Shown: one piece after another, positions 13,426-22,938 of the stretch
Layout: every line of letters begins with the position of its first letter
How positions within the stretch are numbered: position 1 is the first letter of the stretch
Virus record (IMG/VR): IMGVR_UViG_3300047300_000239
Coordinates: 1-34,828 of that record
Length of the DNA stretch: 34,828 bases
Strand: one strand, 5' to 3'
From: a virus
Position numbers and translations under genes: made by a program
Notes under the pieces: generated by a model
Databases searched by the model: none
What the model saw: only the letters and a program-made list of their open reading frames with translations
What the model was told of the DNA's origin: nothing

Positions 13426-13531
13426 AGAAAAAACCCTCTGGTTCCAGCTTTCCACATCGCAGCGTGACCTCTTTCGAGGCTAGAAAGCTAGAGCCAAAGG
13501 GTTCTAGGGTGTCTTGCTGCGATGCTTGACG
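13426..13531 (-). ncRNA. Putative pseudoknotted small RNA upstream of the capsid gene
   Basis: On the minus strand a perfect 9-bp helix joins CATCGCAGC (13516-13524) to GCTGCGATG (13455-13463). Inside it lies a CCTC-GAAA-GAGG tetraloop hairpin (13468-13479). The enclosed segment AACCCTTTGG (13494-13503) can pair over ten positions, one a wobble, with CCAGAGGGTT (13432-13441) outside the helix, which would make a pseudoknot. The 3' partner runs straight into TTTTTT, so the same pairing could act as a terminator. A promoter-like sequence ends just upstream at 13538. No known family is recognised. Confidence 0.5.
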
Positions 13532-13537
13532 GAACTA

Positions 13538-13565
13538 AGTATAGCCGAAAAAAAGCCCCTGTCAA
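13538..13565 (-). promoter_or_regulatory. Promoter overlapping the scaffold terminator
   Basis: On the minus strand TTGACA (13560-13565) and TATACT (13538-13543) are separated by 16 bases. The -35 box lies in the loop and 3' arm of the terminator hairpin, and the spacer contains its T-run. Transcription would start near 13531, at the 5' edge of the structured element. Confidence 0.5.
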
Positions 13566-20507: not shown

Positions 20508-20656
20508 CAAAAGCAGTTGGTAGTGCAGTTATTGCCATAGCAACAGGTTGTGCAAGTGACGTATTTGCCATTAGCGTAGACAGTGTGAGTCACGCAAGAT
20601 GCCCATACGGTCAAAGAAGTGGCAGTAATCCAAATGCCGATTAAAGCTTTTTTCAT
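20507..20656 (-). CDS. Small Cys-rich exported peptide upstream of TerS
   Basis: 49 residues with GGAG 7 bases before the ATG. The first 20 residues look like a signal peptide (MKKALIGIWITATSLTVWAS) followed by Cys21, so it may be a lipoprotein, although tryptophan at -3 is atypical for a lipobox. The mature part has five more cysteines (CTTCCYGNNCTTNC). Its stop overlaps the TerS start. An envelope role is likely but unknown. Confidence 0.75.
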   Translation of the reverse strand: MKKALIGIWITATSLTVWASCVTHTVYANGKYVTCTTCCYGNNCTTNCF

Positions 20657-20673
20657 ATCAGTCTCCAGGTTGA

Positions 20674-20955
20674 TCAAAAGGGGATATCGTCATCCATGTC
20701 AGCCACACCGCCACGCACAGGTTTTTGTACGAGAGCAGGCTTCTTGGATTCATAACCGCCAGATTGTTGTTCAACAGGAGCGCCAAGCTTCAAGCTGAAC
20801 CAGACGTTGCCAGTCTTGTCATCCACATTGCGCCATGCTGATAACCAGAACTGTTGACCAGATTGGTCTGTCCACTTGCCTGTGAGATCAGGATGTGAAT
20901 CTTTTTCTTTGCGGGTATTTTTTCGCAGGTTACCACCTGCCTTTGGTGCATCCAT
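20674..20955 (-). CDS. Small single-strand DNA-binding-like protein
   Basis: 93 residues from the ATG at 20955, chosen because AAGGAG lies 8 bases before it. An in-frame ATG at 21021 lacks such a site. The middle (HPDLTGKWTDQSGQQFWLSA, WRNVDDKTGNVWFSLKLG) looks like a small OB-type beta barrel. The C-terminus VADMDDDIPF is the acidic tip typical of SSB proteins, which recruits replication partners. It is the first gene of the terminase operon, which is unusual for a replication protein. Confidence 0.6.
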   Translation of the reverse strand: MDAPKAGGNLRKNTRKEKDSHPDLTGKWTDQSGQQFWLSAWRNVDDKTGNVWFSLKLGAPVEQQSGGYESKKPALVQKPVRGGVADMDDDIPF

Positions 20956-21021
20956 CTGTTTATCTCCTTTGATGCGTTTCAAGGTTGTTGGCAATGCGTT
21001 CACATAAAGCAGTGTTTGCAC

Positions 21022-21224
21022 TTTGAGTTTCAGATAACCGAAGTCACAAGATGGCGCTAACCCACCATCGCACTACCAACACGGCTGGGGACTGAATCTA
21101 AGAGATGCTTGTTTTAGAGTTCAAGCAAATTGGCTTTTAACCAAAGACAATCCCCATGCGTCTTGATGTGCATTTATGCTATCACAGTGAAATCTTGCGG
21201 ACAAGGATTATTTGTGGCATAGTT
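21022..21224. other. Divergent intergenic region, presumed late promoter
   Basis: This is the spacer between the minus-strand late operon and the plus-strand HNH unit. On the minus strand TTGTCC-17-TAGCAT (about 21179-21207) is a weak sigma70-type candidate. A 6-bp hairpin TGCTTG/CAAGCA encloses TTTTAGAGTT near 21107-21128, and TTGG/CCAA flank a 7-base loop near 21130-21144. No ORF is supported. Confidence 0.4.
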
Positions 21225-21321
21225 CATCTGCCTGAGTCGTGTTGGGTAAGTCTGTCAGATGTAGCATTGCCTGTGGGAAACCATAGGACACGACCAGTGC
21301 TACACCTAACAGGCTTTTTTT
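21225..21321 (+). ncRNA. Structured RNA-like element upstream of the HNH gene
   Basis: On the plus strand TGTAGCATTG (21260-21269) pairs with CAGTGCTACA (21295-21304), nine Watson-Crick pairs and one wobble. Stacked on it, CCTGTGG (21270-21276) pairs with CCATAGG (21281-21287) around a GAAA tetraloop. The 7-base bulge ACACGAC (21288-21294) is perfectly complementary to GTCGTGT (21236-21242). That segment lies in the loop of a smaller hairpin, CATCTG (21225-21230) with CAGATG (21256-21261), so it would form a pseudoknot. ACAGGC (21309-21314) plus seven T could instead pair with GCCTGT (21269-21274) as a terminator. The HNH ATG follows the T-run directly. It matches no riboswitch or ribozyme I know. 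Confidence 0.6.
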
Positions 21322-21774
21322 ATGCGCTTTGAGAAACCTTTGTACAGCAAGCGTCCTTCAGCAGCCAAGCGGTCAAAGGAAGCCAAAAAGACTTTACTCA
21401 AGCTGGCAAAGACAGACCCAATACTTAAGAAGCTGGTCAACCAACAGGCAGTCAAGATAGCCTTCAAATTGGCAAAACAAGCGCCAGCCAAGCCAAAACA
21501 GCAATTTCAACAAGCCCCAACTTACCATCATGGTATGGGAGCAGACTTCTACAAGACCAGGGAGTGGCGGGAAGTTCGCTACAAGGTGTTGGTCAAGTAC
21601 GGCAAGGTTTGCCAATGCTGTGGAGAAAAGCAGGGCTATATCCATGTTGACCACATACTGCCAAGATCTTTGTATCCAGGTAAAGAATTAGATGAAAACA
21701 ACTTGCAAGTGTTGTGTGAAGCATGTAACATTGGTAAGACCAATCGGGATCAAACTGATTGGCGACAGCAATGA
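21322..21774 (+). CDS. HNH endonuclease
   Basis: 150 residues. The N-terminal 65 are a Lys-rich helical extension. The HNH domain follows with C97/C100, HVDH (residues 108-111), an Asn-rich loop (DENNLQVLCEACN) and C132/C135 for a structural zinc. HNH proteins near terminases can assist packaging cleavage; others are mobile nucleases. This gene stands alone on the plus strand, has no ribosome site (the ATG follows a T7 run) and is preceded by a strong RNA structure. A start further in would remove part of the basic extension but leave the nuclease domain whole. Confidence 0.85.
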   Translation: MRFEKPLYSKRPSAAKRSKEAKKTLLKLAKTDPILKKLVNQQAVKIAFKLAKQAPAKPKQQFQQAPTYHHGMGADFYKTREWREVRYKVLVKYGKVCQCCGEKQGYIHVDHILPRSLYPGKELDENNLQVLCEACNIGKTNRDQTDWRQQ

Positions 21775-22293
21775 GCATCTGGGGTTTTGGAGTCGACCCC
21801 TCAAAGGCATGAGATAAACAGTCCTCTCGGGATGCCGAGCAAATCCTCACCAGGAAGATTAGGACGGTAGAGATAAAACGGTACGCACTGACTGACCATC
21901 AGTAATACGGCCTGATCTACCCAAGGTAAGCTGAAACCTTGACGATATACAGATGCAGGAAGAATACGCAAGACCATGCGTATACCCATTCGGGACTACG
22001 ACTCCCTAACTACGCCTATACGAAACGCAGTGTCATCCATCTAGCAACCACGCCATCCAGCACCTCTGTTTGTCAGTGAGATGCTACCAGGCTGATTCTG
22101 AGAAAAAAATTGCGTCATACACCCCAACGGTGAGGTGGGGGGTGGGGGGTAGAAGGGGTGCTTCTTAGCCAGAACGTACTACAGCAATTAACACACTCCC
22201 CCCCATGCAATTTTGCAGAATTGTAGTAGTACCTGCTTTATACGATGTCCATTATGTTAAGTCGCCAGGGGTACTGAGTGCTAACAGCTTACA
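21775..22293. other. Hairpin-rich non-coding region between convergent genes
   Basis: No gene is supported in 519 bases. Perfect inverted repeats on the plus strand include GGGGT/ACCCC (21781-21800), CTCGG/CCGAG (21826-21839) and TCCT/AGGA (21844-21855), the last two both enclosed by GTCCT/AGGAC (21821-21865). Further ones are GGTAGA/TCTACC (21866-21921) enclosing ACTGA/TCAGT (21887-21903), CAAGGT/ACCTTG (21922-21941) and ATACGCA/TGCGTAT (21964-21983). From 22121 there is a C4/G-run section with two G6 tracts, then C7 near 22198. An imperfect GTACTACA inverted pair lies at 22176-22231. It could be a structured RNA, a replication origin or a packaging site. Confidence 0.5.
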
Positions 22294-22938
22294 TCATGCT
22301 AACATTTTGCTTAACACAGCTTCGATGTCTGCCAGGCTAGCGTTAGCCCCTGCCTGCTGCTGGGCTGCTGCGAATAACTCAGCGCCTACGGCTTTCCTTA
22401 GTTGCTCAATTGTCATTTCATCTATACTCTGTTGACTATCTGCCAATTTCAGATTACTAACCCGCTGGTCAGTTACTTTATCTGCTTTACGTTTTCCCAT
22501 GGTTTCCCCCTTTGCACCTGTAAGCTGTTGATTCTCTTGCATAAAAGGGGCCGATTCCCCTGTAATTCCTATGATGTCTTGCAGGGTTAGATCTGCTTTA
22601 TAGATAACCTGCCTGGTATGCGCTCGCTCGCCCTTAAAACCGTAGTAAATGACCTTTACATATCCTGCTTTGATCAATGCCCTGGTATGCACTGCTGCCC
22701 TGTTTAGACTGATTCCAAAATGATCTGCTATTCGCTGCAGGCCAACCCATGTCAGCCCTGCCCTGTTACTGTAAGCACACAGCATCAATAAAACCCTAAG
22801 CTGCATTTCAGTAATTGACCTATCAGTAATTGCCCTGAATGGCACTACAGCGAAATGACGCAGATCTGGCTGTTGTTCTTTCTGCTTGATCCTAGGCTTT
22901 TTGGGCAGGGTGATAGGTACTGGCTGCATGGGCTGCAT
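22294..22938 (-). CDS. Putative replication initiator, winged-helix protein
   Basis: 214 residues. After a basic N-terminus, VVPFRAITDRSITEMQLRVL, then YSNRAGLTWVGLQRIADHFG, then ISLNRAAVHTRALIKAGYVKVI form a winged helix-turn-helix of the kind found in plasmid and phage replication initiators and DnaD/DnaT-like loaders. The C-terminal half is polar and Gln/Ala-rich, ending in a helix (SLADIEAVLSKMLA). It is the last gene of the leftward early block, beside a non-coding region that could hold an origin. A transcription regulator is the alternative. Confidence 0.6.
   Translation of the reverse strand: MQPMQPVPITLPKKPRIKQKEQQPDLRHFAVVPFRAITDRSITEMQLRVLLMLCAYSNRAGLTWVGLQRIADHFGISLNRAAVHTRALIKAGYVKVIYYGFKGERAHTRQVIYKADLTLQDIIGITGESAPFMQENQQLTGAKGETMGKRKADKVTDQRVSNLKLADSQQSIDEMTIEQLRKAVGAELFAAAQQQAGANASLADIEAVLSKMLA

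Follow-up and report, generated by a model that had tools for sequence, protein, structure and literature searches.

A pseudoknotted leader RNA abutting the start codon of exchangeable phage genes

The virus record IMGVR_UViG_3300047300_000239, analysed over its whole length of 34,828 nt (hereafter the window), carries an HNH nuclease gene whose start codon is immediately preceded by a stretch that can be written as a set of RNA helices. Is this stretch a genuine structured RNA and, if so, what does it do for the gene that it precedes?

Fold of the leader and its covariation among homologues

The fold is made up of the following elements.

21229–21235/21242–21248, plus strand: P1 hairpin, loop 21236 to 21241 or 21242 (MFE; covariation)
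21249–21255 (5′ strand, AGTCTGT)/21309–21315 (3′ strand, ACAGGCT), plus strand: P2a (MFE; covariation)
21260–21269/21295–21304, plus strand: P2b, 10 bp (MFE; covariation)
21270–21287, plus strand: P3 hairpin, 7-bp stem 21270–21276/21281–21287 with GAAA loop 21277–21280 (MFE; covariation)
21236–21242 (GTCGTGT), plus strand: pseudoknot strand 1, in the P1 loop (complement of 21288–21294; homologues)
21288–21294 (ACACGAC), plus strand: pseudoknot strand 2, 3′ bulge between P3 and P2b (homologues)

Folding of positions 21223–21324 gives an MFE of −40.6 kcal/mol, well beyond chance expectation (z −4.1 relative to dinucleotide shuffles), and both ends of the RNA, 5′ and 3′, fall within helices. The MFE structure leaves the bulge 21288–21294 unpaired, and this bulge is the exact complement of the P1 loop 21236–21242.

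Copies of the element were found in IMG/VR contigs through HNH searches and a DNA pattern based on P2b, every homologue being a metagenomic contig, and were aligned both with MAFFT (n = 19) and with a covariance model (n = 49 distinct copies); covariation was judged against shuffles and slid partners. In the 49-copy alignment, which as a model-fitted alignment is biased to its own structure for the nested helices, 99.1% of cells are paired and 27 of the 35 pairs show compensatory changes on both sides; no shuffle reached that level of pairing, and slid partners left 38–51% of cells paired. The pseudoknot was outside the model, and in the same copies it is paired in 99.7% of cells and compensated in five of six columns, occurring among the homologues as 11 distinct Watson-Crick versions without G-U. 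For P1, covariation was seen in all five columns counted. Judged from the aligned sequences, P1, P2a, P2b, P3 and the loop-to-bulge pseudoknot are backed by covariation, and the RNA is real. Because G-U pairs occur in P2, it is the plus strand that forms the folded RNA, which bears out the placement of a pseudoknotted element on the strand of the HNH gene; homologues without compensatory change, which would have told against it, did not occur.

A preliminary description of the locus, made by eye, had already traced the 10-bp stem, the 7-bp stem with its GAAA loop, the perfect 7-bp pairing of 21236–21242 with 21288–21294 and the seven T at 21315–21321 ahead of the HNH ATG. All are present in the sequence, and the first three correspond to P2b, P3 and the pseudoknot, each of which covaries among homologues. 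Its 6-bp upstream hairpin (21225–21230/21256–21261) fared otherwise, being paired in only 35.5% of cells across the 49 copies and disrupted in both closest relatives (L002 and L014); support lies instead with the 5′ hairpin of the MFE structure, 21229–21235/21242–21248. The competition of stems over 21260–21261, which depended on the failed hairpin, is likewise not supported. As for the proposed alternative stem GCCTGT/ACAGGC (21269–21274/21309–21314), its final two pairs are missing in about half of the copies, and ACAGGCT (21309–21315) pairs instead with AGTCTGT (21249–21255) in a covarying extension that forms the base of the long hairpin.

Among the copies the fold rather than the sequence is conserved, and they share no conserved unpaired ligand pocket. 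A ribozyme was ruled out, the alignment being devoid of conserved unpaired nucleotides, as was a cruciform or DNA site, G-U pairs being frequent in P2. The expectation that the element would prove unlike known families held in a cmscan search of Rfam, which gave no credible match for the leader at the gathering threshold or at E 10; the window contains no group I intron or tRNA. INPHARED phages, searched at the DNA and protein levels, yielded distant HNH domains only and no leader RNA; bacterial genomes yielded no HNH homologue, and the leader RNA was not among the 80 matches listed for the DNA pattern there. No description of it was found in the open-access literature. By these comparisons the leader is a conserved RNA family uncatalogued until now, supported by covariation, absent from Rfam 15 and derived from uncultured phages.

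Promoter, U tract and the genes behind the leader

The leader is flanked on either side as follows.

21195–21222, plus strand: promoter-like sequence, TTGCGG (21195–21200), 17 nt, CATAGT (21217–21222), with TGG before the second hexamer
21315–21321, plus strand: U7 tract, seen in the sequence, abutting the start codon ATG at 21322
21322–21774, plus strand: HNH nuclease gene, 150 aa (PF01844, E 2.5e-11; phrog_144), without a strong Shine-Dalgarno (SD) sequence

The promoter of the window is a weak match to sigma-70-like hexamers (7/12); at the same position homologues match in 10–12 of 12 positions, as in L161 (TTGACA-17-TATAAT, 12/12). Every clade examined has such a promoter in register, with a few nucleotides separating the second hexamer from P1 downstream. 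A generic promoter and terminator scan of the window listed neither the leader's promoter nor its terminator.

A U tract ends all type I copies seen, with the exception of the L029 clade, which keeps the fold and lacks the tract (GGGCTTTCCATTATG). Termination is therefore not universal, and such copies call for control of translation or some other role. The 3′ strand of P2a does hold a weak SD-like AGG (21311–21313), and the AUG lies a few nucleotides from the stem; the anti-SD energy of the HNH gene is −2.5 kcal/mol, where most other genes in the window reach −5 to −9.5, so the earlier statement that its ATG has no ribosome site was nearly right. Control could conceivably act on translation alone, with P2a concealing the start region as do the hairpins of mobE and I-TevI. 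There is precedent for this in phage homing endonucleases (PMC2988022), the weak SD and nearby AUG agree with it, and it would also suit the L029 clade; it nevertheless leaves unexplained the U tract, as well as the copies that precede tRNAs and ncRNA, and we regard it as quite improbable.

All type I copies scored (86/86) end at an ATG, which opens either an HNH nuclease gene or a gene for an unrelated basic protein of 74 residues, never both at one locus. Conversely, the RNA is present in 34 of 34 loci fetched independently through the 74-aa protein, and ends at its ATG. This protein, for which no known relatives were found, is predicted to consist of two helices (mean pLDDT 77). When HNH-type loci are compared with 74-aa-type loci, which come from phage groups with little else in common, the promoter and RNA are mostly 86–99% identical; identity extends to about codon 1–5, is then lost and returns some 500–770 nt further on. 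The sequences indicate that gene exchange takes place at the start codon and leaves promoter and leader in place. An HNH gene 61% identical to that of the window also occurs without the RNA (L003, 1567–2007), its start overlapping the stop codon of the upstream gene.

A different reading takes the element for an independent small RNA that acts in trans and has a promoter and a terminator of its own, in which case the downstream gene would be expressed by leak only. Its boundaries at a promoter and a U tract, the conservation of fold rather than sequence, the location of both ends within helices and the copies of L045 and L142, which have no gene directly behind them, all speak for it. The start codons of two unrelated families nonetheless lie at a fixed distance from the U tract in all scored type I copies, which counts against a trans-acting RNA because such an RNA would not need it, and the tract is absent in the L029 clade; we consider this reading unlikely.

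Recurrence of the architecture and neighbouring structured stretches

Elements with unrelated sequence were sought with a strict descriptor, consisting of a 5′ hairpin of at least 5 bp, the 7-nt complement of whose loop lies inside a hairpin of at least 13 pairs ending in T5 or longer. This retrieved 10 further elements, against 0.3 expected in shuffles of an equal amount of sequence, and most of them have a promoter in register; a loose structural descriptor was dropped, having many matches in shuffles too. The pseudoknot-plus-terminator architecture thus recurs at several transcription units. Two elements (L163 and L173) lie 10–14 nt before replication-initiator-like genes, as does that of L151 in a looser scan; those of L212 and L202 are followed after about 220 nt by a gene of 143–145 aa; and five (L044, L045, L076, L081 and L088) head tRNA/ncRNA units near HNH genes and have a second loop-linker complementarity of 7–10 nt, which in four is unlikely by chance. 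In L045 (2464–2717), Rfam RF02932 (Betaproteobacteria-1 RNA) comes immediately after the two-pseudoknot version, with an HNH gene next, and in L081 (852–1175) that version stands at the head of a unit with two tRNA genes.

We tentatively propose, at slightly less than even confidence, that these elements belong to a broad, undescribed phage RNA class. Its members would start with the first nucleotides transcribed from a sigma-70 promoter, join a 5′ hairpin to a bulge in a terminator hairpin through a pseudoknot that is strictly Watson-Crick and differs in sequence between phages, and gate swappable cargo (nuclease, 74-aa protein, replication gene, tRNA or ncRNA) joined at the start codon. Units that contain long non-coding stretches, tRNAs and replication-like genes have the element where their transcription is presumed to start, which would also suit put-like antitermination, with RNA polymerase bound by the 5′ end of the emerging transcript and thereby enabled to pass later terminators, including that of the element itself; most copies, however, themselves end in a U tract, and we hold such a mechanism to be distinctly unlikely.

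The HNH gene of the window is directly followed by another structured stretch.

~21781–22012, plus strand: second conserved structured RNA, with a long-range helix 21789–21795/21999–22005

This RNA of about 230 nt is kept among HNH loci of both phage groups, and 16 of its 35 predicted pairs are compensated, the long-range helix included; it has no Rfam match. The 74-aa loci (L195, L143 and L014) have a different conserved region of about 320 nt downstream of the 74-aa gene, which includes a hairpin with a loop able to pair with GGGTAGC at a distal site. Since the downstream RNAs of the two kinds of locus differ, the leader precedes exchangeable gene-plus-RNA modules. Upstream of the leader, L002 lacks some 193 nt that the window has at 20970–21162, in the interval from the start of the SSB gene to the promoter; near the equivalent position, L125 and L173 carry a tRNA-like gene on the minus strand. 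Elsewhere, on the minus strand at about 13450–13560, a TTGACA-17-TATACT promoter overlaps a terminator hairpin and is followed by a structured stretch ending in T6, possibly a further small RNA.

Proposed function and relation to known systems

The leader RNA probably controls expression of the gene behind it. We favour, with the chances evenly balanced, a cis-acting, promoter-proximal 5′ leader of an early-type phage transcript, whose pseudoknot-braced terminator would restrict read-through and mask the start region. A host-type RNA polymerase would initiate at the promoter a few bases 5′ of the leader, the first ~97 nt folding into P1, the long P2a-P2b-P3 hairpin and the pseudoknot between the P1 loop and the bulge above P2b; as the hairpin ends in U7, most transcripts should terminate or pause there, as at an intrinsic terminator. 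The same stem would conceal the weak ribosome-binding stretch, so that both effects together would hold the HNH nuclease at a low or conditional level. The pseudoknot may brace or time the hairpin and may change the outcome, with a presumed degree of read-through and a presumed trigger. Should the leader gate read-through, phages would have in it a compact and swappable platform for expression, with which a DNA nuclease and other early genes are held back.

The preliminary description had envisaged a switch between a terminator and a pseudoknot. Near-equal stacking energies, −13 to −17 kcal/mol for the 7-bp pseudoknot and −12.4 to −16.5 for P2a, do allow one, but the terminator stem then proposed is unsupported, and in a simple A-form reach model, which takes the stacked pseudoknot helix into account, only 0–3 bp of P2a must open for P2a and the pseudoknot to coexist, so that an either/or switch may exist without being necessary. 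No convincing conserved antiterminator helix was found, the GCCTGT/ACAGGC end not being conserved. Pairing of loop and bulge between molecules, giving an RNA dimer or ring as in phi29 packaging RNA or ROOL/GOLLD, would agree with the strictly Watson-Crick, fast-changing pairs, with the tight P1-P2 linker (0–4 nt), which somewhat strains pairing in cis, and with the terminase genes that adjoin the RNA in one phage backbone; given that the simple model shows little strain, that linkers are long in second-class copies and that type I RNAs always have an ATG adjacent, it is very improbable. The possible likeness to phi29 pRNA lies in the complementarity seen in the sequence, and Rfam gave no match.

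Phage-borne structured RNAs next to a protein gene are also found in AbiF with RCd22 (PMC12373285) and in type III toxin-antitoxin systems, from which the leader differs in its lack of repeats (no tandem repeats of the element occur in 20600–22400), its HNH nuclease and an RNA common to another gene. HEARO/omega RNAs of IscB and IsrB similarly adjoin an HNH protein, here by contrast one of 150 aa without RuvC, scoring 39 of 175 bits on the IscB model, next to a 97-nt RNA without a guide segment or Rfam match. That the leader is an RNA antitoxin or an RNA partner of the downstream protein, type III- or OMEGA-like, could be read from the order of RNA and nuclease, from the basic N-terminus of the HNH protein and from the basic, two-helix 74-aa protein; with no antitoxin repeats, an HNH protein without RuvC far below the IscB cut-off and one RNA serving two unrelated proteins, it is scarcely credible.

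As in the pistol ribozyme, the P1 hairpin loop is paired to one strand of the internal loop in the hairpin that follows; in the leader, however, the pairing strand lies 3′ of P3, unpaired nucleotides are not conserved and there is no Rfam match. The put RNAs of HK022 are structured and form the very 5′ end of early phage transcripts, a position that fits that of the leader, which differs in its U tract and pseudoknot.

Closer to the proposed cis-acting leader are the hairpins controlling mobE of Aeh1, I-TevI and segB, all homing endonuclease genes of phages (PMC2988022), likewise structured RNAs at the start of an HNH or other endonuclease gene with the start region in or near a stem; unlike them, the leader is pseudoknotted, has its own 5′ sigma-70-like promoter and a U tract before the AUG, and serves a second, unrelated gene. 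Where such control sequesters a strong Shine-Dalgarno sequence, the stem of the leader holds a weak one (−2.5 kcal/mol), and its promoter, rather than being a late promoter within the hairpin through which late transcripts escape, lies upstream of the whole element. Compared with intrinsic-terminator attenuators, the leader shows no convincing conserved antiterminator helix, its stem is pseudoknotted to a 5′ hairpin and the start codon follows right after the U tract; what it shares with them is a stable, promoter-proximal hairpin and a U tract before the gene, a GC-containing stem followed by U residues being provided, outside the L029 clade, by P2a and U7.
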